Assembly (NCBI RefSeq): GCF_000026105.1
Contig: NC_008027.1
Span: 4,546,501-4,610,500, forward strand
DNA from: Pseudomonas entomophila L48
GTDB lineage: Bacteria > Pseudomonadota > Gammaproteobacteria > Pseudomonadales > Pseudomonadaceae
Length of the DNA stretch: 64,000 bases
Direction: 5' to 3'
The translations under genes and the position numbers were made by a program. This document shows, one piece after another, positions 9,787 to 59,464 of this stretch (position 1 is the stretch's first letter; each line of letters starts with the position of its first letter). Under the pieces are notes generated by a model. It did no database searches and was not told where the DNA came from. It saw nothing but the letters and a program-made list of their open reading frames with translations.

Positions 9787-10344
9787 ATGCGCTGGTTGCT
9801 TGCCCTCTTCTGCCTCAGTGTCGCCTCGGTGTCGCAGGCTGCCTTCACCGAAACCATCATTCGCAAGCCAGCCTCGACGCAGCAGCCGGCGTCTCTGGCC
9901 ATGGTTGCCCCGCAAGGGCCGCAGATCGACAAGGTGCTGGTGCTCAAGTCCGAGCGCCGCCTGCAGCTGATCAGCCGCGGCGAACCGCTCAAGACCTACC
10001 GCATCTCCCTGGGCAAGCAGCCCAAGGGCGCCAAGGAACGCGAGGGCGACAAGAAGACCCCCGAAGGCTTGTACTGGCTGGACTGGCGCAAGGTCAGCGA
10101 CCGCTACAACCTGGCCATGCACATCTCCTACCCGAACATCACCGACGCCGCCAAGGCCCGGCGTGACGGGGTGGCGGCCGGCAGCATGATCATGATCCAC
10201 GGCACGCCGATCAACGAGGAGTACCCGGAGTGGTACTTCCACACCCTCGACTGGACCGAAGGCTGCATCGCCATGCGCAACGACGACATGCGCGAGGTGT
10301 GGAGCATGGTCAAAGACGGCACCATGATCGAGATCCGCCCCTGA
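9787..10344 (+). CDS. L,D-transpeptidase family protein (YkuD domain)
   Basis: The 185-residue exported protein has a signal peptide (MRWLLALFCLSVASVSQAA). The YkuD domain starts near residue 45 (KVLVLKSERRLQLISRGEPL) and contains the catalytic set: His in MIMIHGTP and Cys in DWTEGCIAMR. It may crosslink peptidoglycan or attach lipoprotein in the periplasm, or cleave such links as in the YafK-like subgroup; the sequence does not settle which. It follows the Nudix gene by 19 bases. Confidence 0.9.
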   Translation: MRWLLALFCLSVASVSQAAFTETIIRKPASTQQPASLAMVAPQGPQIDKVLVLKSERRLQLISRGEPLKTYRISLGKQPKGAKEREGDKKTPEGLYWLDWRKVSDRYNLAMHISYPNITDAAKARRDGVAAGSMIMIHGTPINEEYPEWYFHTLDWTEGCIAMRNDDMREVWSMVKDGTMIEIRP

Positions 10345-10363
10345 GCCATCGAAGCACGCCTAC

Positions 10364-10477: not shown

Positions 10478-11137
10478 CTACCAGCGGATTTCCCGCTGTC
10501 CTTGCAGCGCCTCGGCACCCAACCACTGCCCCCCACGCAACACGGGTGTCAGCGCCGCGTTGGGCTGCACCTCGACACTCACCTGAGCCCGCCGCGCCAG
10601 CAGATCGCCGCTCACCGCCAGGCGATGCTGCCCGTCCTGTGCCAAATATCCTGACACCTGCCACCCATCCGCGCAGCTCATCTCGATACCGCCCTGCCCC
10701 AGCCCCAGCGACCAAGGCTCGACCAGCGCCAGGTCATTCACCTCGAGCCGCCCCTGTGCCTCGCGGCACCGCCCGCCACTCCCCCGCATATGCAGCACGC
10801 CTTGCCAGAGCCCGGCCAGGCGATACCCCTGGGCGACACTGGATTGAGCGCTCAGTGCTTCGACTTCGGCTTGCCAGAGCCAAGGCCAGCCACTGGCATG
10901 CAACCGCCACCCCTGCCCCTGGAACCCCATCCATACCTGCACGTCCCGGCGCCACGGTCGCAGCTCCCAGCGCAAGGGGCCAACCGCCCCCAGGCGCATC
11001 GCCTGCCCTTGCCACAGGCTGCCCATCACGCCCTCTGCCGGCAGCCCGCTCATCCATGCCAGCCAAGGCGCAGGCAGCTCGACCAGCAGGCTCAGGCAGA
11101 ACACCACCCCCAACCAAACACCCAAACGCCGGCTCAA
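10478..11137 (-). CDS. gspN: Type II secretion system protein N
   Basis: The last gene of the T2SS cluster encodes about 219 residues: one N-terminal membrane segment (LGVWLGVVFCLSLLVELP) then a periplasmic part with LPAEGVMGSLWQGQAMRLG, the usual GspN pattern. GspN is an optional inner-membrane T2SS part of unclear role. I place the start at TTG (11137), because TTGA overlaps the gspM stop and the membrane helix follows at once; the longer frame to 11191 runs inside gspM. It is not found in the classical P. aeruginosa Xcp cluster. Confidence 0.75.
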   Translation of the reverse strand: MSRRLGVWLGVVFCLSLLVELPAPWLAWMSGLPAEGVMGSLWQGQAMRLGAVGPLRWELRPWRRDVQVWMGFQGQGWRLHASGWPWLWQAEVEALSAQSSVAQGYRLAGLWQGVLHMRGSGGRCREAQGRLEVNDLALVEPWSLGLGQGGIEMSCADGWQVSGYLAQDGQHRLAVSGDLLARRAQVSVEVQPNAALTPVLRGGQWLGAEALQGQREIRW

Positions 11138-11520
11138 GGCTGCACCTGCACATCGAAGCGCAGCCCGTCGCCCTCTCGTGACAACCCCCACTGCACCAAC
11201 CGCGCGCCCTCCGTGCGAAGTGCCTGCAACCAGTCCAGCAGGGACTGGGCATCGCCGACCTTGCCCCGCACCTGCCAGCCTTCATCCTGCGCCTGCACTT
11301 CAAGCAACTCGACACGCCGGGCCTGAGCCGACTGGCGCAGGCGCTCAAGGCTCAAGGTCGGCCCGGTTCGCATCCCGACCGCCGACTCGGCCAAGGCGCG
11401 CCATTGCGCCAGCTCCCGCCAATAGCCGAGCCCTTCACGAAGCACCAGGAAGCACGCCAGCAACGCAATCAGCAGCCAGGCCAGCAGCATCCGCCGTCGC
11501 TGCCACCACTCGCGGCTCAT
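11134..11520 (-). CDS. gspM: Type II secretion system protein M
   Basis: A 128-residue protein with one N-terminal membrane helix (RRMLLAWLLIALLACFLVL) and a ferredoxin-like periplasmic domain containing VRGKVGDAQSLLDWLQAL. GspM pairs with GspL in the inner-membrane assembly platform. The ATG at 11520 overlaps the gspL stop (ATGA). It is shorter than many GspM proteins (about 160) because the cytoplasmic tail and coiled coil are short. Confidence 0.82.
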   Translation of the reverse strand: MSREWWQRRRMLLAWLLIALLACFLVLREGLGYWRELAQWRALAESAVGMRTGPTLSLERLRQSAQARRVELLEVQAQDEGWQVRGKVGDAQSLLDWLQALRTEGARLVQWGLSREGDGLRFDVQVQP

Positions 11521-12593
11521 GAGGCCTCCTCCAGGTCGAACACCACCTGCCGTGCTCCCTGTTCGATCTGCACCTTGCCCCCCACGGCCGCCGCCATCTC
11601 TTGCCAAGGAGGCGTCGCACCATCCCCCTCCAATGCCAACCGCCAATGCCGACCATCGAAACGCACAGCCTGCAACCGCCAGCCTGGGTTCGCCTCCAGC
11701 CAAGCCTGCAATTGCGCCTGCAACCCCTCCAGCTGGCGCAGGCGCAGTTGTTCTTCGCCGTGACTGTCACGCAAGCGCTTGAGCGCCTGGGCCGCCTGGC
11801 GTGGCGTGGCCTGCGGGCCGGTCACGGCCAGCACTTGCTCACGGTAGACCTGCGCCTGGCGCCACTGCTGGGCCAGCCAGAGGCCACCCCAACTGACGGC
11901 CAAGGCCATGCAGGCAAGGGCGAGCCGCCGCTGCGCTGGCTCCAGCCGAGGGTACTGGCGTGGGCTTCGCGCCTCGAACAAGCCAGGCAGGCCCTCCAAG
12001 GGCGCCAGCTCCTTGGGCCAGTCACCTTCGACGGGGGCCCGCGCACCTGCCGGCCAAACCATGGCGGGCACCTGGCCGAGTGACTCGGGCCAGGCCAGCC
12101 AATGGACACGCCCCTCGGCGCCCTTTCCAAGCTGCAACAGCCTTTCGCCTCGACGCCATTGCAAACATTCGTCCGCTTCAGGTTCGGGCAGCAACTGAAA
12201 CTCCCCCCAACATCGCTCCACGGACAACGCCCATTCGACGCACTGGGCACGCCATTGAGCCAACCGCTGCCGGGCCACCACCAGCAGCCGCAGTTGGCCC
12301 GGAGGCCGGCCGATGCAGGCACAATCAACTTCATCCACCCCTTGCAACAGCCGGTCCTCCAGCAACAGCGGCCACTCTTCGCGCTTGAGCCCAGGCGGCG
12401 CGGCCAGCTGGAAGTGGCTGCAATGTTCACCCGGAACAATCAGGGCAACCCGCGCCGACAGGCCCGCAGGCGGCATGCCCTGCCCCTGACGGGTGGCCAC
12501 GCCCTGCTCCACCAGCGCCCAGTCCCACACCGGGCCCGGACGCAGCAACAGCCACGGCCGCAGCGGCGTACGGCGCCGCCACTCAAGTTTCAC
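11517..12593 (-). CDS. gspL: Type II secretion system protein L
   Basis: The 358-residue protein has a cytoplasmic actin-like part (about 1-210), one membrane segment near residue 225 (RRLALACMALAVSWGGLWLA) and a C-terminal periplasmic domain. GspL couples the GspE ATPase to the platform. Its ATG overlaps the gspJ stop with no gene between, so the usual gspK is absent here. Confidence 0.85.
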   Translation of the reverse strand: MKLEWRRRTPLRPWLLLRPGPVWDWALVEQGVATRQGQGMPPAGLSARVALIVPGEHCSHFQLAAPPGLKREEWPLLLEDRLLQGVDEVDCACIGRPPGQLRLLVVARQRLAQWRAQCVEWALSVERCWGEFQLLPEPEADECLQWRRGERLLQLGKGAEGRVHWLAWPESLGQVPAMVWPAGARAPVEGDWPKELAPLEGLPGLFEARSPRQYPRLEPAQRRLALACMALAVSWGGLWLAQQWRQAQVYREQVLAVTGPQATPRQAAQALKRLRDSHGEEQLRLRQLEGLQAQLQAWLEANPGWRLQAVRFDGRHWRLALEGDGATPPWQEMAAAVGGKVQIEQGARQVVFDLEEAS

Positions 12594-13180
12594 GAGCGCC
12601 CCCAGGGCAGCACGAAGGTACAGGCATAGGGTGCTCCATCACGCACGAACTCCAGGCGTACACCCCGTCCGGGATGTGTCGGTTGATCGGAAGGCCAGGC
12701 CAGCCACTGGCCGGACTGGTGGTAAAGCAGGCTCATCGCGCTGACCCGCTCCAACCGTTCGCGCAACACCCACTGCGGGCTCGCGGCGGCATACAGGTCA
12801 GCGGAGGTTTCCACCAGCAACTGCTGCTCACGCGCCTCGAAGCGCAGGCGCTGACGTTGCAGCCGCGAACCGCCTTCGGCCTGCGGCCACGCCGCGGCGG
12901 CCACCCAAAGCAGTTGCTGGCGGTCGGGCTGCCAGTCCAGCCAGCGCACCGGCAAGGGCAGGCGTTGTTCATACACACGGCGCAGCACCGGGCTGTCGAA
13001 GCGCCGCTCCAACGCCAGGCAGAAGTCCACGACCTGGGTTTCCCGCTGCGGCTGATCGAGCCGCTCACGCACCCTCAGCCAGCCATTGACCAGCGCGGCC
13101 AGCAGCAGCCCAAGCAAGGCAGTCAACGCCAGGGCCACCATCAGTTCGATCAGGGTCATGCCTGTCTGCCTGCGCTTCAT
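12590..13180 (-). CDS. gspJ: Type II secretion minor pseudopilin J
   Basis: The 196-residue protein begins MKRRQTGMTLIELMVALALT, a prepilin-type leader with cleavage after Gly and Glu at +5, then a long soluble domain with LRERLERVSAMSLLYH and a C-terminal GVRLEFVRDG. The position after gspI and the length fit GspJ, part of the tip of the pseudopilus. It overlaps gspI and gspL by 4 bases each. Confidence 0.82.
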   Translation of the reverse strand: MKRRQTGMTLIELMVALALTALLGLLLAALVNGWLRVRERLDQPQRETQVVDFCLALERRFDSPVLRRVYEQRLPLPVRWLDWQPDRQQLLWVAAAAWPQAEGGSRLQRQRLRFEAREQQLLVETSADLYAAASPQWVLRERLERVSAMSLLYHQSGQWLAWPSDQPTHPGRGVRLEFVRDGAPYACTFVLPWGRS

Positions 13181-13545
13181 GGACGCTCCAGGAACACCGT
13201 GTATTGCCCCAGCGGCAGACGCTGGTCGCGGTCGGCAAACAGCAGAAGCTCGCCGCGGCGCAGGTCACGCACGCCCGTGCGCCGCAACTGCAAGTGCCAA
13301 TGGCAAACCTGCGCGCCCTGGGTCAGCTCGCCAGTGTCATGATTGGTCGCCGGCCAGTACTGCTCGACCACGAACCGCGCCTGCAACTCACGGGCGCAAA
13401 GCACACCCAGGCGATGCTGCTGCACCGTGTCCTGCACCGCCAGGCGCTGACGCAGGACCTGACTGGTGATCACCGCCAACACGGCGGCAATCGCCAGCGC
13501 GACGCTTACTTCAAGCAGCGTAAAACCCTGCTCCCTGTGCTTCAT
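13177..13545 (-). CDS. gspI: Type II secretion minor pseudopilin I
   Basis: The 122-residue prepilin-like protein has the leader and helix QGFTLLEVSVALAIAAVLAV, with processing at G|FTLLE expected by the PilD peptidase encoded elsewhere. The family core ARELQARFVVEQYWP is typical of GspI. GspI nucleates the pseudopilus tip with J and K. It overlaps both neighbours by 4 bases. Confidence 0.85.
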   Translation of the reverse strand: MKHREQGFTLLEVSVALAIAAVLAVITSQVLRQRLAVQDTVQQHRLGVLCARELQARFVVEQYWPATNHDTGELTQGAQVCHWHLQLRRTGVRDLRRGELLLFADRDQRLPLGQYTVFLERP

Positions 13546-13979
13546 TGGGCGCGGCTCACCTGCAAGCGGCCATCACGCCCCCAGTGCCAGCCCAGGCTGC
13601 CTTGCGCCCAGTACCAGCGCACACTGCCGGGCCGGGCCCAACCGTCGGGGGTGAATACCAGCACCGGCGCCGGGCTGCTCGGCCAGTCTGGACGCAGGCC
13701 CTTTGGCCACGCGCCCAGGGCCACCGGCTCGACCACCCAGCGTCCACGCTCCTGGCGCACGAACTCCGGACGCTGGCCGCTCCAGCGCAGGCCACGCAAC
13801 TGCCCGGCATGACGCGCCAGGTCGCCCTGGGCCACGGTGGCAGTCGCCAAACGCTCCAGCGCCTGATCGACACCGCCGTTGCCGCTGTCGAGCCAGGCCA
13901 CGGCCAGGCTGGTCATCAACCCGGCGATGGCCAGCACCACCAGCAGCTCGAGCAGACTGAAACCACCCTGGCGACGCAT
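13542..13979 (-). CDS. gspH: Type II secretion minor pseudopilin H
   Basis: The 145-residue prepilin-like protein starts MRRQGGFSLLELLVVLAIAG, a type III leader peptide (G|FSLLE), followed by a soluble domain. GspH links the GspG filament to the I-J-K tip. The ATG at 13979 is chosen because it is followed directly by the leader; the open frame upstream lies in gspG. It starts 1 base after the gspG stop. Confidence 0.85.
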   Translation of the reverse strand: MRRQGGFSLLELLVVLAIAGLMTSLAVAWLDSGNGGVDQALERLATATVAQGDLARHAGQLRGLRWSGQRPEFVRQERGRWVVEPVALGAWPKGLRPDWPSSPAPVLVFTPDGWARPGSVRWYWAQGSLGWHWGRDGRLQVSRAQ

Positions 13980-13980
13980 G

Positions 13981-14415
13981 TCACAACGCCCAGTTGCCCA
14001 GGTCGGCATCCAGCCCTTCGCCACCGGGCACACCATCGGCGCCCAGCGAATACACATCGACCCGGCCATGCTCACCAGGCATGCGGTACTGGTACGGCGT
14101 GCCCCACGGATCTTCCGGCAGGCGGCGGATATAGCCATCGCTGCGCCAGCTGCGTGGCAGCGGTTCCTGGGTCGGTTTCTTCGCCAGCGCGGCCAGGCCC
14201 TGCTCGTTGCTGGGGAAGCGCAGGTTGTCCAGGCGGTACATGTCCAGCGCCTGCTCCAGGGTGGCCAGGTCGGCCATCACCTTCTGCTTCATCGCCTTGT
14301 CCTGGTTGCCCAGCACACTGGGCGCAACCACGGCGATCAGCAGGCCGATGATGAAGATCACCACCATGATTTCCATCAGGGTGAAGCCACCCTGGCGCTT
14401 GTGTCGTTGCTGCAT
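13981..14415 (-). CDS. gspG: Type II secretion major pseudopilin G
   Basis: The 144-residue protein has a short leader and helix GGFTLMEIMVVIFIIGLLIA, then the GspG core LATLEQALDMYRLDNLRFPS and the calcium-site loop region DPWGTPYQY...VYSLGADG. It is the main subunit of the periplasmic pseudopilus. The ATG at 14415 has AAGGAG eight bases upstream; an in-frame ATG at 14433 has none and would add six residues. Confidence 0.95.
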   Translation of the reverse strand: MQQRHKRQGGFTLMEIMVVIFIIGLLIAVVAPSVLGNQDKAMKQKVMADLATLEQALDMYRLDNLRFPSNEQGLAALAKKPTQEPLPRSWRSDGYIRRLPEDPWGTPYQYRMPGEHGRVDVYSLGADGVPGGEGLDADLGNWAL

Positions 14416-14429
14416 CGAAGTTCTCCTTG

Positions 14430-15632
14430 TCACAGTTGCAATCCCTGGTTGAGCTGCATGATCGGCAGCAACACCGCCAGCACGATGAACAGCACCACGC
14501 CACCCATCACCAGAATCATCAGCGGTTCGAACAGCGCCATCGCGGTGTCCACCTGGCGGGCGAAGCCGCGCTCCTGGTCATCGGCCACCCGTTCGAGCAT
14601 GTCGGCCAGGGTGCCACTGGCCTCGCCGCTGCCAACCATGTTCACCAGCAACGGCGGAAACTGGCCTGCGCCGTCCAGCGCCCGGTGCAGGCTGGTGCCG
14701 CCCTGCACCTGCAGGCGCACCTGCTCCATCGCCACGCGGATACGCCGGTTGCCGACCGTCTCGGTGGCCACCTGCAACGCCTCGAGCAAGGCCACGCCGC
14801 TGCCGCAGAGGATCGCCAGGCTGCGCGCCAGCCGGGCGCTCTCCAGCACCTGCAGTACCTGGCCGATGCGCGGCAGGCGCAGCAGCAGGTCGTCGCGGCG
14901 CAGGCACCAGTGGGGCTTGCGCAGCAGCACGCCTGCGAACAGCGTCAGCATGAGCGCCAGCAGCAACAGGTATGGCCCGGCATGGACCAGCCCCTGGCTG
15001 AGGCCGATCAGCAACGAAGTAATGAAGGGCAGGCTCTGCCCGGAATGGGCGAATTGTTCGGTGAGCTTGGGCACCACGAAGGTCATCAGGCCGACCACCA
15101 CCGCCAGCGACACGCCCATCAGCACCGCCGGGTAGATCAACGCGGTGCGCGCCTTGTGCCGCTGGCGTTGCACCTGCTCGAGGTGATCGGCCAGGCGCGC
15201 CAGCACCTGGCCCAGGCGCCCCGAGCGCTCGCCGGCCTCGACCAACGCGCAATACAGGCCGGTGAAGGGCTGCCCCTGGCGCGCCAGGCTGCGGGCCAGG
15301 CCGAGGCCTTCGGCGAGGGAGCCGCGCAAGGCCACCAGCACGGCGTGCAGGGCCGGCTGGCGCAGCTGCCGTTCCAGGGTGGCCAGGGCGTCGACCAAGG
15401 GAATGCCGGCGCCGACCAGGGTTGCCAGCTGGCGGGTCAGCTCGCACAGCTGGGCACGGCTCAAACGCTGGCGCCGTGGCTGGGCCTGGCCGGCTTCATG
15501 GCGCTGCAGGTGCCGGGCGAACAACCCCCGCTCGCGCAGCAACTGGCGCGCATGGCGCTCGCTGTCGGCCTGCACGCTGGCCTTGTGCGCCTTGCCGGCG
15601 AGGTCCACGGCCTGGTAGCGATAAGTCGGCAT
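14430..15632 (-). CDS. gspF: Type II secretion inner-membrane platform protein F
   Basis: The 400-residue protein carries the duplicated GspF domain: RAQLCELTRQLATLVGAGIP with GERSGRLGQVLARLADHLEQ in the first half, and LARSLAILCGSGVALLEAL with VGSGEASGTLADMLERVADD in the second, and three membrane segments. It forms the platform core that couples GspE to pseudopilus assembly. It starts 3 bases after gspE. Confidence 0.95.
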   Translation of the reverse strand: MPTYRYQAVDLAGKAHKASVQADSERHARQLLRERGLFARHLQRHEAGQAQPRRQRLSRAQLCELTRQLATLVGAGIPLVDALATLERQLRQPALHAVLVALRGSLAEGLGLARSLARQGQPFTGLYCALVEAGERSGRLGQVLARLADHLEQVQRQRHKARTALIYPAVLMGVSLAVVVGLMTFVVPKLTEQFAHSGQSLPFITSLLIGLSQGLVHAGPYLLLLALMLTLFAGVLLRKPHWCLRRDDLLLRLPRIGQVLQVLESARLARSLAILCGSGVALLEALQVATETVGNRRIRVAMEQVRLQVQGGTSLHRALDGAGQFPPLLVNMVGSGEASGTLADMLERVADDQERGFARQVDTAMALFEPLMILVMGGVVLFIVLAVLLPIMQLNQGLQL

Positions 15633-15635
15633 AGG

Positions 15636-17075
15636 TCAGCCCTGCACCACGCGCAACACTTCGGCGAGGCTGGTCTGGCCCTGCGCCAGGCAGTCGGCGG
15701 CCATCGCCACCAGGCTCTGCCGGCGACCCTCCAGGTAAGCCTGCATGGCCAGTTCACTCTGGCCGTCGTAGAGCAATGCCACCAGCCCGTCGTCCAGCTC
15801 GATGAATTCGTACAACCCCAGGCGCCCGACATAGCCGTTGCCCTGGCAACGCTCGCAGCCCAGCGGGTGGTAGGTTTCGGTCAGTTGCGGCCACAGCTCG
15901 CGCTCCGCGCTGTGCAGCGGCCGCGCCACCGCGCAGGTGCACAGCCGCCGCACCAGGCGCTGGGCCAGCACACCGCGCAAGCACGAGGCAATCAGAAACG
16001 GCTCGACGCCCATGTCGCGCAGGCGGGTCACTGCGCCCACGGCACTGTTGGTGTGCAGCGTCGACAGCACCAGGTGCCCGGTGAGGCTGGCCTGCACGGC
16101 GATCTGCGCGGTTTCCTGGTCGCGAATCTCACCCAGCATGATCACGTCCGGGTCCTGACGGAGAATGGCCCGCAGACCGCTGGCGAAGGTCAGCCCGGCC
16201 CGTGGGTTGATGGCGGTCTGGCCGATGCCGGCGATGGCGTACTCAACAGGGTCTTCGACGGTGAGGATATTGCGGCTGCCGTCGTTCAGGCTGTTGAGGC
16301 TGGCATACAGGGTGGTGGTCTTGCCCGAGCCGGTGGGGCCGGTGGACAGTACGATGCCGTTGGGCCGCGCCAGGCAGCTGCGCAGGCCGCGCAACACGGC
16401 GGCGGGCATGCCCAGGTTGTCCAGCGCCAGCAGGCTGGCCTGCTTGTCGAGCACCCGCATCACCACCCGTTCGCCGTGGATGCCGGGCAGGGTCGAGACA
16501 CGCACGTCCACCTCGCGCCCGGCGGCGCGCAGGGTGATGCGGCCGTCCTGGGGCTGGCGCTTTTCGGCGATGTCCAAACGGGCCATCACCTTGATTCGCG
16601 ACACCAGCATCGCCGACAGCGCCCGTGGCGGGCGCAGTACTTCGCGCAGGTGACCGTCGACCCGCAGGCGCACCACCAGGCTCTGCTCGAAGGTTTCGAT
16701 ATGGATATCCGAGGCGCGCAGGCGCAGGGCCTGGCCGAACAGGCCGTTGATCAGGCGGATCACCGGCGCTTCGTCGTCGCTTTCCAGCAAGTCCTCGATA
16801 CGCGGCATCTCGCTCATCAGGCTGTCGAGGTCGACCTGTTCGCCGATGCCTTCGATCAACGCCTCGGTCGCCGCCTCGCCGGCCTGGTAGAGCTGGCCGA
16901 GACGCTCGTCGAACTGAGCGTCGTCAAGGTGTTCCAGCGCACTTGGCTGGCCATGGACCCGCAACAGCTCCTGGAGCTGGTCGCTGTCGGCGTCGCTGCG
17001 CAGCCACAACTGCCAGCCGCCTTCGGCAGGCGCCATGGCCAGGCCTGTCTGGCGCGCCAGGCGATAAGGCAGCAT
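15636..17075 (-). CDS. gspE: Type II secretion ATPase E
   Basis: The 479-residue cytoplasmic ATPase has Walker [20 protein letters not shown] near residue 247, an Asp box [10 protein letters not shown], Walker [15 protein letters not shown] and a His box [14 protein letters not shown]. The zinc-binding loop is RRLCTCAV...[13 protein letters not shown]: the first pair is CxC, where relatives have CxxC. The start is ATG 17075, overlapping the gspD stop as TGATG; a GTG at 17078 is an alternative one codon earlier. Confidence 0.94.
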
Positions 17076-19033
17076 CACCAGTCACCGCCGTCGAGCCGCG
17101 CGCGGCTGGCCGGGAACGCCTGCAGCAACGGCATGCCTTCGGCCAGCGCCGGCAGCTTGAGCGATGTGCCCTGTTGCAAGCTTTGGTATTTCTGCTGGCT
17201 GAGCCCGGCCAGGCTCTCGCCATCGCGCAGGATGCGTGGGCGGATGAACACCATCAGGTTCTGCTTGGTGCCCTTGCTGGCGTCGGAACGGAACAGCCGG
17301 CCCAGGCCGGGAATATCGCCGAGCAGCGGCACGCGCTGGTTGCTGGTGCTGCGCTCGTCACTGATCAACCCGCCGAGGATCACCAGGCCGTTGTCCTCGA
17401 CCATGACCTTGGTCTTGATCTCGCGTTTGTTGGTGATCACATCGCTGGCAGCGCGAGACTCGGCGATCGACGACACTTCCTGGACGATGTCCAGGCGCAC
17501 GCTGTTGTCGACGTTGACCTGCGGCTTGATGCGCAGCTTCACCCCCACTTCCTTGCGCTCGATGGTCTGGTAGGGGTTGGCGTTGTTCTGGGTGACGGAG
17601 CCGGTGACGAAGGGCACTTCCTGGCCCACCAGGATCGACGCCTCGGCGTTGTCGAGGGTCAGCAGGGTCGGGGTGGACAACAGGTTGAAGCCGCTGTTGC
17701 CCTTGAGCGCGTTGACCAGCATGGCGAAGTTGAAGCCACCGCCGAAATGGCCGAAGCCGGCCGTGGCGCCGGTGGTCGCCGACAGCAGCTTGCCAAGCTT
17801 TGCGTTGTCGCCACTGCTGGCCGCACCCGCGATGCTGGCGATGTTCACCCCGTTGCTGCCGAAGTTGACGATGCCCGCGCCGAATTTTTCGTCGGCGAAC
17901 AGCCATTGCACACCCAGCTCCTGGGCGCTGCTGTCGGACACTTCGGCGATGATCGCCTCGACCACCACCTGCGCCCGGCGGATATCCAACTGTTCGACGA
18001 TGCTACGGTAGGCGGCCAGCTCGCTGTCGGGGCCGACCATGACCACGGCATTGGTGCCCTCTTCATATTCGAGGCGGATGCCGGAATCGCTGGCCGCCTG
18101 CAACGGCTTGTCCTTGCCATCGCCCTCGCCGCCTTCGGCCGGCACCGCGCCCGACTGGCTCAGCCCACGCAGCACCTTGACCACTTCGGCGGCATTGGCG
18201 TGGCGCAGGTACATCACCTGGGTGTTGCTGCTGTGCAGGTTTTCACTTGGCCGGTCCAACTGGGCGAGCAAGGCGCGCACGCGCTCGCGGCTGTCGGCGC
18301 TGCCGCGTACCAGCAGCGCGTTGCTGCGCGGGTCGGCGACCACCTGGGCGCCATCGGCGCCCTGCTCGCGGGCCAACAGTCGGGTCACCAGCCCCGCCGT
18401 GTCGGCGGCGCTGGCATGCTTGAGCGGCATCACCTGCAACGGCTCGTCACTGACCTGGTCGAGCTGGCGCAGCAGGCTGTCGATACGTTCGAGGTTGCTG
18501 CGCCAGTCGGTGACCACCAGCAGGTTGGCGGCCGGGTATGGCGTGATCACCCCGACCCGCGGGTCGATCAGCGGCTTGAGGATATTAAGCATCTGTTCGC
18601 TGGCAGCGTTACGCACATTGAACACCCGAGTGGCCACGCCATCGCTGCCTTCGGACTTCTTGCCCGGCCGTTCCACCGGCACCGGCTCCAGGCGCGCGGC
18701 CTGGTCGGGGACGATCTTCACGCTGCCGTTGGGCAGGTCCACCGTGGCAAAACCCTGGGCGCGCAGCTGGGCCAGGAAGATGTCGTAGATGGCGTCGGCA
18801 TCATGGCGATCGACCGTGCGCACGGTGACCTTGCCCTGCACCCGCGGGTCGACGATGAAGGTGGTGCCGGTGATGCGCGACACGCTGTCGATGAACTCGC
18901 CCAGCTCGGTGTCGACGAAATTCACCTCATACAGCGGCGTGCCGTCGTCGGCGAACACTTCCGGCTCCTCGGCCCAGGCCAGGGACAGGCACAGGGTCAG
19001 CAACCCAGCCACGCAGTACCGTGTGATCATCAT
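17075..19033 (-). CDS. gspD: Type II secretion outer-membrane secretin D
   Basis: The 652-residue secretin has a signal peptide ([21 protein letters not shown]), the N0 domain ([20 protein letters not shown]), three N1-N3 repeats ([58 protein letters not shown]) and the secretin core with VPFVTGS and [12 protein letters not shown]. It forms the outer-membrane channel. No GspS pilotin gene is present. The gspC stop lies next to its start. Confidence 0.95.
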
Positions 19034-19450
19034 TCATCCTTGGCGCTTGAAGCCGGTCACGGCGGGGCGTGGCGGCCAGGGCAGGCGCTCGCGCCGCCCG
19101 TGGTTGTCGAAAATCAGGCCCTGGGCGTCGATGTCCTGCAGCACGATACCCGGCGCCAGGCGCTGGCCACGGCCCAGGGTGCGGACCTGCTCGCCGTGAC
19201 GCAGCACCACCACGCTGGCCGACAGGGGCTGGGCCTTGAGCCCGCCCAGGTAATGAAGAGGCAAGCGGGTCAGCGGAATGACGCCGTCGTCCACCGGTGC
19301 CTGCCAATGCCCGACCAGCAAGCCCGGCAGCAGCGCCTCGGCCTGCTGCGCGGCCTGGGCCGGTTGCGGCTGGCGGCTGAGCAGCAGCACGCATTGCGCC
19401 GCCAGCCAGCCGGCGAGGGTCAGCAACAGACCCGTGACGATGCGCGGCAT
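19034..19450 (-). CDS. gspC: Type II secretion protein C (short, no PDZ domain)
   Basis: The 138-residue protein has one N-terminal membrane helix (IVTGLLLTLAGWLAAQCVLL) and a homology-region domain (RLPLHYLGGLKAQPLSASVVVLRHGEQV) that in GspC binds the secretin N0 domain. There is no room for the C-terminal PDZ or coiled-coil domain of long GspC proteins. Position before gspD supports the call. It begins 5 bases after the SoxB-like gene, in the same transcription unit. Confidence 0.78.
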   Translation of the reverse strand: MPRIVTGLLLTLAGWLAAQCVLLLSRQPQPAQAAQQAEALLPGLLVGHWQAPVDDGVIPLTRLPLHYLGGLKAQPLSASVVVLRHGEQVRTLGRGQRLAPGIVLQDIDAQGLIFDNHGRRERLPWPPRPAVTGFKRQG

Positions 19451-19455
19451 ACCGA

Positions 19456-21099
19456 TCACACCGCCCCCTGGCGCGGATGCCAGCCAGGGTGGCCCTGCAC
19501 GTAGCGCACGTCGGGCAGTTGCAACGGTGTCAGGTGCCAGCCCGGCGCCTGCCGCGCCAGCCAAGCCTCGACGGTTTGCCACAACGGCACGCCCGCCTGG
19601 GCATCGACATGCAGGCCGAAGGTCCGGCACAACCCCTGCACAGGTTCGAACCCGACAATGCGCTTGCCGGTCGGGCTGTAGTTCACGTGCCAGGCTTGGG
19701 TCTGCCAGCGGGGCAGGTCCTGGCTGTTGTCCAGCAGCAGCGGGTCGCCGAACAACTGCTCGGCGGCGTTCTCCAGCACCTGCTCGACGGGTTGCGCGGG
19801 CACTTCGAGCACCGGTGCGGGGTAGCCACCAGTCAGGCTGATCAAGTGTTCACGGGTAATGGATTCACCGGCCTGCACGGGGAAGTCGTAGCGCAGGCCG
19901 GGAAGCAGCACCGGCATGCTCGAACCATCGGCCAGGGCCTGGTGCAACAGGTTGTCCCAGCTGCCGCCACGGGTATCGCGACGCCACAGCGCCTGTGGGG
20001 CCCGGGCCAAAGGCTGGTCGAGCCAGGCGGCATGGCCGCTGCGCTGTTGTTGCAGCACGCCGCGCAACTGACCGGCCCGGGCCAGGGTGGCAGGCGGGAG
20101 GCTTTGCTCGAACGCGGGGTAGAACCGGGCGTCGAACTGCCATTGCCCGCCCGCCTGCCGGCAACGCAGGCGAAACGCGCCACTGGCCCGACACCCGGCG
20201 AACAGCACTGGCACCCGCCGCCCACTGGCCTGGGTAACCTGCACTGGCGCAGGCCACAGATCCTGGCCCCGGGCGCACAGCAGCACGTCAATTTCAGGAA
20301 TACGCTCGGCCAGCCACAGCCCCGGCCCACTGCCGACATCGGCCAGGGCCACCACCAGGTCGCCCTCGCGACGCGCCTGCTGGAAGCTGGGCAACAACGC
20401 CTGGTACCACTGCTTGAGGGAAGCTTTCTGGTCCTGGGCATAGGGGTCGGTGACACCGACCACCGCCACCCGCACACCGCCGCGCTGGAACACGTGCACA
20501 CCCGCGACCCCCAGCGCCTTGGCCTGCTCGCTGGCCAGACCCGCGCCCAGGGTAATAGAAGAAGACTGTCGGTACAGCACCGTGCTGCGCTGCGGCCAGA
20601 GTACGCGTTCGTCGCTGCTGACCCGCGCCTCGCTGCCCAGCAACTGGCTGCCCTGCACCCCACTCTCACCTTGGGTGAGGTAGGCCAGGCCACTGCCGTT
20701 CCAGCACTGACCGTTCTCCAAGGTCAGGCAGCGCTCGGCACCGGCCTCGCCACGCAATTGTTCGAGCAGCGCCGCCAGCACCGCGTAGCCCCCCGTGCGA
20801 GCCTGCGCGGCCTGGTCGGCATCGAGCAACGGCGCCAGCTCCGGTTGCGCGACGCGGGCATTCGGGCCGCTCATCCAAGGCGCGCGGCCCAGGTGGCTCA
20901 CCGGACCCAGGCGGGTCGCCGGGACCACGGCCTGGCCAGGCTGGCGGGCGTCCAGCGTGTCAGCCACGTACAGCAGGTCCACCGACCGCTCACCGCCAGC
21001 ACCGGGCAGCGGCAGCGCGGAACAGGCGCCGAGCAGCGGTGCCAGCGCACCGATGCCCATCCAGCCAATCACGTCCCGCCTGCCCATGTTGCTTGCCAT
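19456..21099 (-). CDS. SoxB/5'-nucleotidase-like Tat lipoprotein lacking metal ligands
   Basis: About 547 residues. The N terminus GRRDVIGWMGIGALAPLLGAC combines a twin-arginine motif with a lipobox. The body follows SoxB-type phosphoesterases (from memory of the family): VDLLYVADTLDA, TGGYAVLAALLEQLRGE, CWNGSGLAYLTQG, GVRVAVVGVTDPYAQ, and a C-terminal part EHLISLTGGYPAPVLEV. But where SoxB has TDTHAQ, GGDTW, a GNH-like turn and GHTHD, this protein has ADTLDA, ENGQCW, SSDER and CARGQD, so the metal-binding His/Asp set is lost. The gene heads the T2SS operon and starts next to a PHO box. In-frame ATGs at 21129, 21111 and 21087 are alternatives. It may be a non-catalytic surface or secreted lipoprotein, perhaps helping the T2SS or PhoX. 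Confidence 0.72.
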   Translation of the reverse strand: MASNMGRRDVIGWMGIGALAPLLGACSALPLPGAGGERSVDLLYVADTLDARQPGQAVVPATRLGPVSHLGRAPWMSGPNARVAQPELAPLLDADQAAQARTGGYAVLAALLEQLRGEAGAERCLTLENGQCWNGSGLAYLTQGESGVQGSQLLGSEARVSSDERVLWPQRSTVLYRQSSSITLGAGLASEQAKALGVAGVHVFQRGGVRVAVVGVTDPYAQDQKASLKQWYQALLPSFQQARREGDLVVALADVGSGPGLWLAERIPEIDVLLCARGQDLWPAPVQVTQASGRRVPVLFAGCRASGAFRLRCRQAGGQWQFDARFYPAFEQSLPPATLARAGQLRGVLQQQRSGHAAWLDQPLARAPQALWRRDTRGGSWDNLLHQALADGSSMPVLLPGLRYDFPVQAGESITREHLISLTGGYPAPVLEVPAQPVEQVLENAAEQLFGDPLLLDNSQDLPRWQTQAWHVNYSPTGKRIVGFEPVQGLCRTFGLHVDAQAGVPLWQTVEAWLARQAPGWHLTPLQLPDVRYVQGHPGWHPRQGAV

Positions 21100-21155
21100 C
21101 GACCCCGCCATCCTTATCCGAGTACACATTGGGTCCCGGATAGTGCGGCGTTCTC

Positions 21156-21173
21156 GTGACAGTTTAATGGCAG
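21156..21173 (-). promoter_or_regulatory. PHO box (PhoB site) for the SoxB-like/T2SS operon
   Basis: The minus strand reads CTGCCATTAAACTGTCAC: two 7-bp direct half-sites (CTGCCAT, CTGTCAC) separated by 4 A/T bases, one mismatch from the E. coli-type PHO box CTGTCAT-N4-CTGTCAY. It lies about 57 bases upstream of the assigned start, facing the T2SS operon. It suggests activation by PhoB at low phosphate. Confidence 0.8.
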
Positions 21174-21238
21174 AAAAGCGCTGTTAATTCCAAAGCATTA
21201 TTTATTCAACCCGATTAAGAACCGCCCGTTTTAACGGC

Positions 21239-21256
21239 GCGTCACATTTCTGCAAA
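21239..21256 (+). promoter_or_regulatory. Possible weaker PHO box upstream of phoX
   Basis: The plus strand reads GCGTCAC-ATTT-CTGCAAA, matching GTCAC and CTG of the two half-sites. A -10-like CATACT lies at 21265-21270, about 9 bases downstream, the distance usual for PhoB-activated promoters. It is a weaker match than the divergent site. Confidence 0.45.
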
Positions 21257-21322
21257 TCAATCATCATACTTACGCCCTAAAGTCGCTGTTTCCTCCCACT
21301 CAGCCAACATAAGGACACCCTG

Positions 21323-23398
21323 ATGAGTCGAGAATCCGGCGACAACCTGGACCGCAACCCAAGCGACAACCTGCCGATGGCCAGCGTCATGGACGCCTAC
21401 CTGAGCCGTCGGAGCGTGGTGCGCGGCAGCCTGGGCGCGGCCATCGCGATGATCGCCGGCGCAGGCCTGAGCGGCTGCTTCGACAGCGGCGGCGGCTCCA
21501 ACCATGACGACCCGGTCAGCGAACCACCGGTGACCACCCCGGACCCGAAGCCGGAAAAACCCAAGCTCAAGCTCGGCTTCAATTCCATCGCCGGCTCGCG
21601 CACCGACGCCTGCGTGGTCGCCGCTGGCTATAGCGCTTACGTGCTGGCGCCCTGGGGCACGCCCATCAACAGCAACGGCAACCCCTGGAAATCCGATGGC
21701 AGCAACACCGCCACCGACCAGGCCAACGCCATGGGCATGCACCATGACGGCATGCACTTCTTCCCCATCAACGGCAGCTCCGACGACGGCTTGCTGGCGA
21801 TCAACTTCGAGTACATCGACACCGCGGCCCTGCACCCGGCCGGCCCGACCACCGACGCCAGCGGCAAGCGCCCGGCCGAGGAAGTGCGCAAGGAGATCAA
21901 CGCCCACGGTGCCGGCGTGGTACGCCTGACCAAGGTCAACGGCCGCTGGCAGGTGATCCAGAACGACCCGCTCAACCGCCGTTTCACCACCGCCTCGCTG
22001 ATGAACATCGCCGGCCCCCTGCGTGGCACCGACCACGTCAAGACCAAGTTCTCGCCCAGCGGCACCCAGTGCCGCGGCACCAACAACAACTGCGGCAACG
22101 GCTACACCCCGTGGGGCACCTACCTGACCTGCGAGGAAAACTGGCCCGGCATCTTCGTCAACAAGGGCACCCGCCCGGCCAACCAGACCCGCATCGGCGT
22201 GGGCAGCTCCAGTGGCCAGTACAAATGGGAAAGCGCGGCCGGCGATGCCAGCGAAGTGGCCGACGAATTCGCCCGTTTCAACATCACCCCGACCGGTGCC
22301 GGCGCCACCAGCGACTACCGCAACGAGGCCAGCACCTACGGCTACATCGTCGAGATCGACCCGTACAACAGCGCCACCCTGGCCGTGAAGCGCACCGCGC
22401 TCGGCCGCTTCCGCCACGAAGGCTGCTGCCCCGGCCTGCCGGTGGCGGGCAAGCCGCTGGTCTGGTACACCGGCGACGACTCCAACAACGAATACCTCTA
22501 CAAATTCGTCTCCGACGCAGTCTGGGACCCGGCCGACGCCAACCCCGCCGACCGCCTGGCCACCGGCGCCAAGTACATGGACAAGGGCAAGCTCTACGTG
22601 GCGCGCTTCAACGCCGACGGCAAGGGCGTGTGGCTGCTGCTCGACGTCGCCACCCCGACCACCAACGGCAGCACCCTGGGCGCCCTGTTCGGCGACCTGC
22701 CGGGGATCATCCTCAACACCCGTGGCGCCGCCGACGCCGTGGGCGCGACGCCCATGGACCGCCCCGAGTGGACCGCCGTCAACCCGCTCAACGGCGACGT
22801 CTACCTCACCCTCACCAACAACAGTGCGCGCACCGCCGCCAAGGTCGATGCCGCCAACCCGCGCGGGCCGAACCGCCACGGCCATATCATCCGCTGGCAC
22901 GACAGCGACGATCACAAGAGCTTCACCTGGGACATCTTCGTGTTCGGCGCCAACGCCGCCGGCGCCCCGGACATCAACCGCTCCGGCCTGACCGAACTGA
23001 ACCAGTTCGCCAGCCCCGACGGCATGAGCTTCGATAGCCGTGGCGTACTGTGGTTCGAGACCGACAACGGCGAAACCACCCTGACCAACTACACCAACGA
23101 CCAGCTGCTGGCGGTGATCCCCACCGACCTGGTCGACGCCACGGGCAAGCAGGTCCCGATCAACGCCACCAACCAGGCCGACCTGCGGCGCTTCTTCGTC
23201 GGGCCAAATGGCTGCGAAGTGACCGGTATCACCTTCACCCCGGACAACAAGACGTTGTTCATCAACATCCAGCACCCGGACAACTGGCCCTACACCGACA
23301 AGGCCACCGATACCACCCCAGCCGGCAGCACGGTGCGCCCACGGGCCGCGACCGTGGTGATCCAGCGCAACGACGGCGGCGAGATCGGCACCGCCTGA
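21323..23398 (+). CDS. phoX: PhoX family alkaline phosphatase (DUF839), Tat substrate
   Basis: The 691-residue protein carries a twin-arginine signal (SRRSVVRGSLGAAIAMIAGA) followed by a lipobox LSGC. The PhoX fold markers are visible: GYTPWGTYLTCEENWPG, YGYIVEIDPYN, and ALGRFRHEGCCPG with the conserved cysteine near residue 368, and a C-terminal FVGPNGCEVTGITFTPDNKT. PhoX enzymes are calcium/iron phosphomonoesterases that release phosphate from organic esters at phosphate starvation. AAGGA eight bases upstream of the ATG fixes the start. It is divergent from a T2SS cluster; in P. putida, Xcp-type T2SS is known to secrete phosphatases, so this protein is a likely cargo. Confidence 0.92.
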   Translation: MSRESGDNLDRNPSDNLPMASVMDAYLSRRSVVRGSLGAAIAMIAGAGLSGCFDSGGGSNHDDPVSEPPVTTPDPKPEKPKLKLGFNSIAGSRTDACVVAAGYSAYVLAPWGTPINSNGNPWKSDGSNTATDQANAMGMHHDGMHFFPINGSSDDGLLAINFEYIDTAALHPAGPTTDASGKRPAEEVRKEINAHGAGVVRLTKVNGRWQVIQNDPLNRRFTTASLMNIAGPLRGTDHVKTKFSPSGTQCRGTNNNCGNGYTPWGTYLTCEENWPGIFVNKGTRPANQTRIGVGSSSGQYKWESAAGDASEVADEFARFNITPTGAGATSDYRNEASTYGYIVEIDPYNSATLAVKRTALGRFRHEGCCPGLPVAGKPLVWYTGDDSNNEYLYKFVSDAVWDPADANPADRLATGAKYMDKGKLYVARFNADGKGVWLLLDVATPTTNGSTLGALFGDLPGIILNTRGAADAVGATPMDRPEWTAVNPLNGDVYLTLTNNSARTAAKVDAANPRGPNRHGHIIRWHDSDDHKSFTWDIFVFGANAAGAPDINRSGLTELNQFASPDGMSFDSRGVLWFETDNGETTLTNYTNDQLLAVIPTDLVDATGKQVPINATNQADLRRFFVGPNGCEVTGITFTPDNKTLFINIQHPDNWPYTDKATDTTPAGSTVRPRAATVVIQRNDGGEIGTA

Positions 23399-23566: not shown

Positions 23567-24241
23567 ATGCGCCTACTGATCATCGAGGACGAACCCCGTA
23601 CCGCCGACTACCTGCAGCAAGGGCTGCGCGAAAACGGCTACGTGGTCGACTGCGCCCACACCGGTACCGACGGCCTGCACCTGGCCCGCCAGCAGCCCTA
23701 CGACCTGGTGATCCTCGACGTCAACCTGCCCGAACTGGACGGCTGGGGCGTGCTGCAGCGCCTGCGCGCAGAATCGTCCACGCGGATCATGATGCTTACC
23801 GCCCACGGCCGCCTGGCCGATCGGGTCAAGGGCCTGGACCTGGGCGCCGACGACTACCTGCTCAAGCCTTTCGAGTTCCCCGAACTGCTGGCGCGTATCC
23901 GTAGCCTGTTGCGGCGCAACGACCAGCACCTGCAACCCAGCACCCTGAAGGTCGCCGACCTGGAGCTCGACCCCGGCCGCCATCGCGCCTGGCGCGGTGG
24001 CCAGCGCATCGACCTGACCGCCAAGGAGTTCGCCCTGCTGCACCTGCTGATGCGCCAGAGCGGCGAGGTGCTGTCGCGCACCCAGATCATCTCGCTGGTG
24101 TGGGACATGAATTTCGATTGCGACACCAACGTGGTCGAGGTGTCGATCCGCCGCCTGCGGGCGAAGATCGACGACCCCTTCGAGGACAAGCTGATCCACA
24201 CCCTGCGCGGTGTCGGCTATGTGCTCGAGGCCCGGCCTTGA
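23567..24241 (+). CDS. OmpR-type response regulator (heavy-metal CopR/CzcR/IrlR group)
   Basis: The 224-residue regulator has a receiver domain with phospho-acceptor Asp51 ([14 protein letters not shown]), acidic pocket IIEDE and Lys in [13 protein letters not shown], and a winged-helix DNA-binding domain ([20 protein letters not shown]...[14 protein letters not shown]). The sequence style fits the CopR/CzcR/IrlR group. It is translationally coupled to the kinase (TTGA). No metal resistance gene is next to it, so the signal is unknown. Confidence 0.9.
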
Positions 24242-25623
24242 AACGCGCCAGCCTGTCCCTGCGCCTGGGCCTGACCGTCACCCTGCTGGGCGCGGCGCTG
24301 GTGCTGCTGCTCGCCTGCCTGGCGGTGTTCGCCCTCGACCACGAGTTGGACAGCCGCGCGCGCAAGGACCTGGCGCGCAAGATGCTGCAGGTCGAGCACA
24401 ACCTGCGGGTCGACCTGCGCAGTGACGACCTGGGCACCCGCGCCCATCCGCTGCTCGACCTGGTGATGGGGCACGACAACCTCAGCCTCAGCGTGATGGC
24501 CGTCAATGCACGCCACCCGGCCCTGATCAGCCTCGGCCCGGCGATGCAGTCACAGCATCTTCTGACGCTGGAAGTCGACGCCCGGCTGACCTTCCATGAA
24601 TGGCGAGATGCGGACGGCAAGCAGATCCTCACCGCCAGCAGCCTGATGCGCCTGCGCGACGACACCCCGGTCAAGGTGCTGATGTCGCTCAATCGCGACG
24701 ACGACAATGCACTGCTGCAGGCGTACCTGAACTCCACCCTGCTGGCCCTGCCGTTGTTGCTGCTGTTGATCGGCATCGCCGCCTGGAAACTGGTGCAGCG
24801 CGGCTTGCGCCCCCTACGGCACTTCCGCCGCATCGCCGGCCAAGTCTCGGCCCAGGACCTGGGTCATCGTTTGCCCGACAGCGACCTGCCCGTGGAACTG
24901 GCCGACCTGGCCCGGGCGATCAATGTCATGCTCGACCGCCTCGACGAGGGGGTGCGCCAGCTGTCGCAGTTTTCCGACGACCTGGCCCATGAACTGCGCA
25001 CCCCAATCGGCAACCTCATGGGCAAGGCCCAGGTGACACTGGCCCGCGAGCGAGATGGCGAGCGTTATCGAGAAGCGTTGGAAGACAGTGTCGAAGAACT
25101 CACCCGGCTCAACCGCATCATCAACGACATGCTGTTCCTCGCCCAGGTCAGCCAGCCGCAGACACAAGTAGTCCTATCGCCCGTGGCGCTGGCCGACGAA
25201 GTGGCTCGGGTAAGCGAGTTGTTTGCGTTCAGTGCCGAGCTCAAGGACATCATCTTGAAACGCCAGGGTTGGGGCACGGCGCTGGTCGACCGACTGATGT
25301 TCCAACGGGCACTGTCGAACCTGTTGAGCAACGCCCTGCGCCACAGCCCGGAAGGCCAGCCGGTAACCGTGGGCATCGAACGGCGGGGGAACGAGGTAGC
25401 GGTCTGGGTGGAGAACCAGGGGCCGGGAATAGCCGAGGCGCATCAACCACACCTGTTCGAGCGGTTCTACCGGGTGGGTGCCGGGCGTTCGCGGCTGGAA
25501 GGTGGAACCGGGTTGGGGTTGGCGATCGTGAAGTCGATCATGCAGTTGCATGGCGGGCGGGTCGAGGTGTGTAGCCAGCCCGAAGGGCCGACACGCTTCA
25601 CCCTGGTGTTCCAGGCCGAATAG
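24238..25623 (+). CDS. Sensor histidine kinase (CusS/CzcS-like)
   Basis: The 461-residue kinase has two membrane segments (about 10-32 and 165-185) flanking a periplasmic domain, a HAMP linker, HisKA with His251 in [15 protein letters not shown], and ATPase boxes [13 protein letters not shown] and [20 protein letters not shown] place the start at TTG 24238, which overlaps the regulator stop as TTGA and puts the first membrane helix directly after; the frame runs open upstream inside the regulator gene. It is followed by a REP pair. Confidence 0.88.
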
Positions 25624-57761: not shown

Positions 57762-57973
57762 GGCGGCCTCCTGGACCGCGAAGGTGCCCGGCACAGCGGC
57801 GCTGGCGGGCGTCGACGACGATGCGTTGATCGACATGGCATCAGACAGCGCGGCCGGGGTTCGGTGCCATTTCTGCAATAAATTGAAACAGGTCGTATAA
57901 CCCTGAAAAACATGCAGTCATTTTTCGGTCATCTCACTAGAATGTGGCCACCGGCACACCTCTCGGGAAGATC

Positions 57974-59464
57974 ATGCCTTCACCGTCCGCCCTGTTCTCG
58001 CAACGTTCGCTGATCCTCGCCCTGCTGCTGTTGCTGGCCTGCGGTTTCCTGGCCACTTCGCTGCTGAGCTACTACGCCTCGCGCGGGGCGATCCGCGATG
58101 GCATCGTCAATACCGAGCTGCCGCTGACCTCCGACACCGTCTATTCGGAAATCCAGAAGGACCTGATCCGCCCGGTGCTGATCTCGTCGATGATGGCCCA
58201 GGACACCTTCCTGCGTGACTGGGTGCTGGGCGGCGAGCAGGACACCCGGCGCATTACCCGCTTTCTGGGCGAGGTGATGGGCACCCAGGACACCTGCACC
58301 AGTTTCTTCGTCTCCGACCGCAGCCTCACCTACTACCAGGCCAAGGGCGTGCTCAAGCAGGTCAGGCCCGACAGCTGGCGCGACGCCTGGTACTTCCGCG
58401 TGCGCCAATCAACCAAACCCTATGAGATCAACGTCGACCTGGACATGGCCAACCAGGACAAGCTCACGGTGTTCATCAACCATCGGGTGCTCGACTACCA
58501 GCAGCGCTTCATTGGTGCGGTGGGCGTGGGGCTGAGCGTGGAGTCGGTGGTTCGCCTGATCGACGACTATCAACGGCGCTACCAGCGCGCGGTGCTGTTC
58601 GCCGACGCCCAGGGCAAAGTGTTGCTGACCGGCTCCGACGGCGGCCCCCACGGCCTGCGCGCCGGCCAGCAACTAAGCGATAGCAACCAGTGGCAGGACC
58701 TGCTCGCGCACCTGCCGGCACCCGCCGAAGGCAGCCACGAGTACCATGACAACGACGGCCACAGCCACTTCCTCAATGTGCGCCTGCTGCCGGAGCTGGG
58801 CTGGTACCTGCTGGTGGACAAGCGCGAGAGCGGCGCCCTGGACCGTATCCGCCAGTCGCTGTACTTGAACCTGGCGATCTGCGCGATGATCACCCTCGTC
58901 GTGTTGTCGCTGCTCAATGCCATGATCAAGCGCCACCAGGACAACGCCGCGGCGCTGGCCACCCTCGACAGCCTCACCGGCCTGCCCAACCGTCGCAGCT
59001 TCGACCTGCTGGCCGGGCAGGCGCTGGTGGAAGCCCAGCGCGACAGCGCGCCGCTGGTCGCCCTGTTGATCGACCTGGACCATTTCAAGGCGCTCAACGA
59101 CACCCACGGCCACCTGGCCGGCGACGAAGTGTTGCGCCAGTTCGCCACTGTGCTGCAAGGCAGCCTGCGCCAGTCCGATATACTCTGCCGCTGGGGCGGC
59201 GAGGAGTTCATCGTGCTGCTGCGCGAAGCCCACGGGCGCCACGCCATCGAGGTGGCGGAGAAGATTCGCCGGCGCACCGAGCAACTGATCTTCAGCTACA
59301 ACGAACAGCCACTGCGCCTGACCGCCAGCATCGGCCTGTCCAGCCTGCAGCGCGAAGACACCCTGCACAGCCTGCTGACCCGCGCCGACCATGCCCTTTA
59401 TCGTGCCAAGCAGAGCGGCCGCAACCGCGTCTGCAGCGAACTGCCCGGAACCGACCATGACTGA
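57974..59464 (+). CDS. Diguanylate cyclase with periplasmic sensor domain
   Basis: The 496-residue protein has two membrane segments (about 10-30 and 300-320) around a periplasmic region of about 270 residues resembling dCache, and a C-terminal GGEEF domain. The active-site GGEEF is at 408-412 and an RQSD at 399-402 gives the inhibitory I-site, so the enzyme should make c-di-GMP with product feedback. The ligand is unknown. It overlaps the next gene by 8 bases. Confidence 0.92.
   Translation: MPSPSALFSQRSLILALLLLLACGFLATSLLSYYASRGAIRDGIVNTELPLTSDTVYSEIQKDLIRPVLISSMMAQDTFLRDWVLGGEQDTRRITRFLGEVMGTQDTCTSFFVSDRSLTYYQAKGVLKQVRPDSWRDAWYFRVRQSTKPYEINVDLDMANQDKLTVFINHRVLDYQQRFIGAVGVGLSVESVVRLIDDYQRRYQRAVLFADAQGKVLLTGSDGGPHGLRAGQQLSDSNQWQDLLAHLPAPAEGSHEYHDNDGHSHFLNVRLLPELGWYLLVDKRESGALDRIRQSLYLNLAICAMITLVVLSLLNAMIKRHQDNAAALATLDSLTGLPNRRSFDLLAGQALVEAQRDSAPLVALLIDLDHFKALNDTHGHLAGDEVLRQFATVLQGSLRQSDILCRWGGEEFIVLLREAHGRHAIEVAEKIRRRTEQLIFSYNEQPLRLTASIGLSSLQREDTLHSLLTRADHALYRAKQSGRNRVCSELPGTDHD

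Follow-up and report, generated by a model that had tools for sequence, protein, structure and literature searches.

Why should the genes of a type II secretion system (T2SS) be packed into one unit with the gene for a SoxB-like protein, opposite a divergent phosphatase gene, and what might that protein do there? The question is raised by a 64,000-nucleotide stretch of the Pseudomonas entomophila L48 genome, referred to here as the window, in which a minus-strand unit (uxpA-gspC-D-E-F-G-H-I-J-L-M-N, positions 10478–21129) points away from phoX (21323–23398, plus strand); UxpA is the name used in public records for relatives of the SoxB-like protein. We consider it probable (roughly 0.8) that this locus is the P. 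entomophila-type version of the Pho-regulated Xcp (Uxp) T2SS of the Pseudomonas putida group, exporting PhoX and equipped with UxpA as a non-catalytic partner. Orthology, a conserved PHO box, the loss of metal ligands from UxpA and co-inheritance are the observations that carry this reading. Its core confirms, for a further species, a phosphate-scavenging system that is already known; what appears to be new is the loss of the UxpA active site, the co-inheritance of UxpA with the T2SS and the splitting of the module. The features of the locus are as follows.

21323–23398, plus strand: phoX, orthologue of uxpB (Pfam PhoX, 454 bits; structure 3zwu, E 2.8e-106)
21250–21283, plus strand: phoX-side promoter block, a degenerate PHO-like repeat CTGCAAATCAATCATCAT followed 10 bases on by TAAAGT
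21156–21173, minus strand: PHO box facing uxpA and the T2SS unit (2 mismatches; conserved in 73/80)
21140–21145, minus strand: probable −10 element CACTAT, 10 bases past the PHO box (CANTAT-type element, 47/73)
19456–21129, likely start 21099, minus strand: uxpA, putative SoxB-fold lipoprotein without a metal site (TIGR04486, 120 bits)
19034–19450, minus strand: gspC, named with the help of its position (Pfam T2SSC, 25.6 bits, just under the cut-off of 27)
17075–19033, minus strand: gspD, secretin (TIGR02517, 616 bits; signal peptide without a lipobox, by eye)
15636–17078, minus strand: gspE, ATPase (Pfam T2SSE, 454 bits)
14430–15632, minus strand: gspF (Pfam T2SSF, 203 bits)
13981–14433, minus strand: gspG, major pseudopilin (Pfam T2SSG, 140 bits)
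13542–13979, minus strand: gspH (TIGR01708, 93 bits, cut-off 80)
13177–13545, minus strand: gspI (Pfam T2SSI, 44.5 bits)
12590–13180, minus strand: gspJ, named with the help of its position (N_methyl; TIGR01711, 25 bits, below cut-off)
11517–12593, minus strand: gspL (Pfam GspL_C, 65 bits; NCBIfam, 62 bits, cut-off 65)
11134–11520, minus strand: gspM (TIGR04412, 197 bits)
10478–11191, minus strand: gspN-like, last gene of the unit, named by position and conserved in relatives

An orthologous system in P. putida

The original prediction described a tightly packed minus-strand T2SS unit with a divergent phoX, and the gene ends and protein families bear this out. Gaps inside the unit are at most 5 bases and many junctions are 4-base overlaps: 5 bases separate uxpA from gspC (given a gspC start at the ATG at 19450), the C-D, D-E, E-F, F-G and G-H spacings are 0, −4, 3, −4 and 1 bases, the H-I, I-J, J-L and L-M spacings are −4 bases each, and gspM and gspN overlap by 58 bases if the called GTG start of gspN is used. 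All reading frames of the unit are open. Family matches are clear for GspD, E, F, G, I and M, so that secretin, ATPase, inner-membrane platform and pseudopilins are all present; GspH lies above its NCBIfam cut-off, GspL above its Pfam cut-off, and GspC and GspJ below theirs. GspN found no family match in Pfam and NCBIfam profile searches and no match in a plasmid collection. The genome encodes a prepilin peptidase in a single copy (PF06750, 117.7 bits), and PhoX has a full domain (profile 2–515 of 515).

The Hxc T2SS of P. aeruginosa secretes phosphatase at low phosphate, exports LapA and has a lipoprotein secretin; here the cargo would be PhoX, and GspD lacks a lipobox as judged by eye. A closer counterpart is the Xcp T2SS with UxpB (PhoX), for which Putker 2013 is reportedly the source study. 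This system of P. putida KT2440 and WCS358 is cited in PMC4509608 and PMC12700990, the latter describing UxpB as PP_1043, a 74 kDa phosphatase exported by the twin-arginine translocation (Tat) pathway. The WCS358 locus has the same genes in the same order, a divergent phoX and a PHO box, with UxpA 80% and PhoX 87% identical to the proteins of the window. In P. putida BIRD-1, according to PMC5082522, low phosphate enriches PhoX, UxpA, GspK and GspG; a phoBR mutant lacks PhoX, UxpA and "TatADG"; and PhoX is found in the exoproteome and UxpA in the whole-cell proteome. (In its table, GspK is labelled tatA and GspG tatG, an apparent mix-up of the T2SS with the Tat pathway.) Dependence on phosphate and PhoBR, and secretion of PhoX by this T2SS, have been shown by others in P. 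putida, and the prediction of a PhoB-switched secretion module with PhoX as a client gains its support through this orthologous locus.

Among the loci listed, the closest with a strain name is that of P. entomophila COR5 (UxpA 95% identical). The ratio of nonsynonymous to synonymous substitution rates (dN/dS) against COR5 is 0.03–0.09 for uxpA, phoX, gspD and gspE. Two values above 1, for gspN (against L095) and gspC (against L026), were disregarded as likely alignment artefacts; gspC values as such are inflated because the called frame begins inside uxpA.

UxpA: fold and metal site

The original prediction called the protein at the head of the unit SoxB-like; a reading of it as an enzyme is not supported. 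The SoxB model TIGR04486 matches UxpA with 120 bits, against a cut-off of 550, and Pfam yielded nothing for it even with the threshold relaxed to E 10. A profile built from 28 UxpA members nonetheless matches SoxB structures across positions 40–488 of 549, and an AlphaFold2 model (predicted local distance difference test, pLDDT, 79) superposes on SoxB thiosulfohydrolase (2wdc, 4uwq) at a template modelling (TM) score of about 0.75 and with 22–23% identity. What UxpA shares with SoxB is therefore a fold; unlike SoxB it would lack the metal site, carries a lipobox and is encoded at a T2SS locus.

The set of relatives took in 80 loci out of 112 confirmed and 120 proteins out of 166. For UxpA, 114 of 121 members had at least 500 residues (the seven shorter ones were dropped) and were aligned with four annotated SoxB proteins, in which seven positions (D, H, D, H, H, H, H) are taken, as for the superfamily, to be the di-metal ligands. 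Only the first Asp is retained, in 114/114 members; the other six positions are replaced by residues that are themselves invariant in all 114 (L59, Q141, S172, D264, R287 and Q289). The patterns with which the 80 loci were collected included degenerate motifs, so the set is biased towards UxpA proteins without ligands; a whole-protein search of 199 genomes of the genus, which is free of this bias, added only three weak matches (26–31% identity). Sixteen distant matches in a plasmid collection (23–27% identity) include annotated ones, and these are SoxB. That UxpA works as a SoxB or nucleotidase was rejected on the lost ligand positions and the absent Pfam match, and the alignment makes it an implausible metallophosphatase, a SoxB fold apparently without its metal site.

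Across six pairs dN/dS of uxpA is 0.09–0.16, similar to that of gspD and gspE and indicative of strong purifying selection, which argues that the gene is not decaying and has another job. The loss of the active site was not found stated in the literature searched, a search outside which the presumed naming paper of UxpA lay.

Co-inheritance of UxpA with the secretion system

Among the 199 genomes, this GspD (at least 75% identity; the next match is at 43%) occurs in 32, all of which carry UxpA. UxpA occurs in 33, the three weak matches being excluded; the extra genome, G076, carries a UxpA fragment where a contig breaks off, and a GspD was not detected there at E 1e-100. In one of the 32 (locus L120, genome G164) the uxpA reading is divided between two frames, with gspD and phoX matched at full length. 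PhoX, at 75% identity or more, is found in 44 genomes, namely the 33 with UxpA and 11 that have neither UxpA nor this T2SS (GspD matches of at most 43% and 16 PhoX matches of 49–51% were dropped).

At four of the 11 loci without the T2SS (L107, L110, L112 and L117) the uxpA-gspN block is cleanly absent: homology to the window ends at 10344–10345 and resumes at 21244–21259, with 202–422 bases between. At L109 the two flanks lie 3.9 kb apart, and for the remaining six the left flank fell outside the stretch fetched. Conversely, at locus L091 UxpA and the T2SS are present but no phoX was found within 10 kb, the sole such case among the 80 loci. UxpA thus appears to be tied to the T2SS more than to PhoX, because it is absent from the 11 genomes with PhoX alone and present at L091.

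Two observations may be recorded beside these. The GspD frame is about 588 residues long in five genomes (G057, G072, G103, G081 and G163), query residues of about 199–257 being unmatched, a length variant in the secretin N-domains. A conserved open reading frame at 9787–10344 (plus strand), with a weak L,D-transpeptidase-like match (41.6 bits, cut-off 365), ends where homology to the T2SS-less loci ends.

PHO box and promoters

Between the two transcription units the original prediction placed a near-consensus PHO box. The box (CTGCCATTAAACTGTCAC, 21156–21173, minus strand) is there, with 2 mismatches, and is conserved; it is directed at uxpA and the T2SS genes, and not at phoX. As proof of regulation the box alone was rejected, since 3.8 sites with up to 3 mismatches would be expected in the window and 4 are there; with up to 2 mismatches, the complete genome (5,888,780 bases) has 24 matches against 8 for the reversed pattern. 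Although weak in isolation, the box becomes convincing through its conservation across relatives. A uxpA-directed box with at most 3 mismatches is present in 73 of 80 phoX-uxpA intergenic regions, against 0.44% of shuffled regions (20 shuffles per region, one strand). The set comprises the window and 79 of the 80 related loci, L091 being left out (no phoX in reach) and L063 reduced to its last 240 bases. In an alignment of 76 sequences no other 18 bases of the region are conserved as well as the box, and the loci where it is poor or absent (L086, L089, L092, L094 and L096–L098) are all among the more distant ones. A −10 element at such a spacing is the expected layout of a Pho promoter, and CAATAT, CAGTAT or CACTAT lies 10–11 bases past the box in 47 of the 73, with CAACAT in a further 23.

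A phoX-directed box with at most 3 mismatches was found in 1 of the 80 regions. On that side the second conserved stretch of the intergenic region is the block of degenerate PHO-like repeat and TAAAGT, which the alignments of 8 of the 11 T2SS-less loci cover in whole or in part; phoX would accordingly have a promoter block of its own, conserved but degenerate. As a side observation, another PHO-box-like site with 2 mismatches lies at 57915–57932 (plus strand), 11 bases ahead of an open reading frame at 57944–59464, window matches being at chance level.

The displaced gspK and a second tatA

The tip pseudopilin gene gspK is absent from this cluster, a point on which the original prediction was silent, having also overlooked gspK and a second tatA (tatA2) elsewhere in the genome. 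An incomplete T2SS was considered and rejected, since gspK is present, intact, about 99 kb away (G000:C1, about 4668378–4669346; L009, 8379–9347; 169.5 bits, cut-off 130). It is divergent from tatA2 (L009, 9497–9712), the pair ending at about 4669711. In WCS358 and most relatives gspK is instead convergent with phoX and divergent from tatA2. Of the 80 loci, 73 show gspK; in five of the other seven the contig breaks off, leaving P. entomophila COR5 (L020) and L084 as true absences within 10 kb; at L091 gspK lies on the other side, after gspN. Genome G190 has gspK split off as it is here, and the module has thus been split in this lineage.

Of the 73 loci with gspK, 64 have tatA2 beside it. At the T2SS-less locus L107, tatA2 directly follows phoX and gspK is gone; in the stretches fetched for the other 10 T2SS-less loci there is no tatA2, and because of this tatA2, too, seems mostly to go with the T2SS. 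Of 74 upstream regions (the 73 loci with gspK and this genome), 28 contain a PHO-like site facing tatA2 with no more than 3 mismatches, against 0.75% of shuffles; the copy in this genome has 4 mismatches.

Export signals

PhoX has the Tat signal SRRSVVRG and the lipobox LSGC, and a permissive pattern places a lipobox behind the Tat motif at every one of the 80 loci with the T2SS and at 9 of the 11 without it; judging from this signal PhoX is probably lipidated. The linker after the lipobox has a median of 24 (n = 77, T2SS-bearing) against 21 (n = 9, T2SS-less; Mann-Whitney p 0.005), a difference on which we do not lean, the loci being related. Of the 114 UxpA members, 104 carry the twin arginine and 108 a lipobox whose Cys is usually followed by Ser or Ala; of the six scored as lacking a lipobox, three have a shortened N-terminus and three read LPGC. 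UxpA is hence a predicted Tat lipoprotein.

Directly after phoX, at 23567–25623 (plus strand), lie a heavy-metal-type histidine kinase gene and an open reading frame that may be its regulator. As a candidate for PhoR the kinase was rejected (heavy-metal sensor family 447.6 bits, PhoR 156.3). In the plasmid collection, 2 records share short stretches of DNA with the phoX side.

A model and its alternatives

In the mechanism that we favor, PhoB would bind the PHO box at low phosphate and switch on uxpA and gspC to gspN, and phoX (uxpB), the displaced gspK and tatA2 would respond at the same time through different promoters. PhoX would fold in the cytoplasm, cross the inner membrane by Tat, probably be lipidated, and be exported by this T2SS. 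UxpA, a Tat lipoprotein of the SoxB/5′-nucleotidase fold without the metal site, would be a non-catalytic partner of the T2SS, either an accessory of the machine or a partner of PhoX at the surface; we hold these two about equally likely. Lipidation, the role of UxpA, the regulation of gspK and tatA2 here, and function in this strain are what we infer beyond the published P. putida system. More tentatively, and we would not put it higher than a possibility, UxpA could be a decommissioned SoxB/5′-nucleotidase-type enzyme turned into an obligatory outer-membrane lipoprotein that receives or docks lipidated PhoX, making the whole a dedicated Tat-to-T2SS route equipped with a TatA of its own, a dead-enzyme adaptor and a lipoprotein cargo.

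UxpA might rather be a second dedicated cargo and no part of the machine, a lipoprotein at the surface that would bind organophosphates or assist PhoX; we think this the less probable explanation, though one to be taken seriously. The nearest precedent is ElpS of Caulobacter crescentus, a low-phosphate lipoprotein encoded beside a T2SS and released T2SS-dependently, which raises phosphatase activity and for which, in the available text of PMC2996285, no phosphatase activity of its own was found; the two share this setting, and that text mentions no SoxB likeness for ElpS. The twin arginine and lipobox of most UxpA members, and a fold that is that of periplasmic or surface nucleotidases, would suit such a cargo. 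However, UxpA is missing from every one of the 11 genomes that have PhoX but not the T2SS (although a cargo lost together with its machine would look alike), it persists at L091 with no phoX nearby, and in BIRD-1 the whole-cell proteome includes it but the reported exoproteins do not, as far as the accessible part of PMC5082522 shows. That UxpA is instead an active enzyme with a different chemistry in a retooled pocket seems to us improbable. The protein is annotated as a 2′,3′-cyclic-nucleotide 2′-phosphodiesterase and is listed in the seen part of PMC5082522 as a putative intracellular phosphatase, and the invariance of the six replacing residues indicates a pocket under selection, but six of seven ligand positions are lost and no Pfam family recognizes the sequence. 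Least probable of all is a T2SS that has been dead or decaying in this lineage since gspK split off: gspK does lie outside the cluster here and in G190 and is not within 10 kb in COR5, yet it is intact and still beside tatA2, all frames of the unit are open, and the low dN/dS values of uxpA, phoX, gspD and gspE against COR5 speak for constraint.

Several points weigh against the preferred reading of a Pho-regulated, PhoX-exporting T2SS with UxpA as its partner. The evidence for this strain is sequence, and co-inheritance would look the same for a part of the machine and for a second cargo dedicated to it. Related genomes, moreover, are not independent samples. Lipidation of PhoX is awkward to square with its finding in the exoproteome unless the protein is held at the surface or cut free. 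gspK lies some 99 kb from the cluster, and its control has no PHO-box support: a conserved gspK-directed box was rejected because a site with at most 3 mismatches was seen in only 2 of the 74 upstream regions, one of them that of this genome. As to novelty, the authors of the presumed naming paper may already have noted the SoxB likeness of UxpA, or more.

Implications

If UxpA is a catalytically dead lipoprotein tied to a secretion machine, its phosphodiesterase annotation is wrong. It would, if this is true, also offer a direct handle on how a T2SS recognizes folded cargo, and the phoX loci that lack the T2SS provide a ready natural control.

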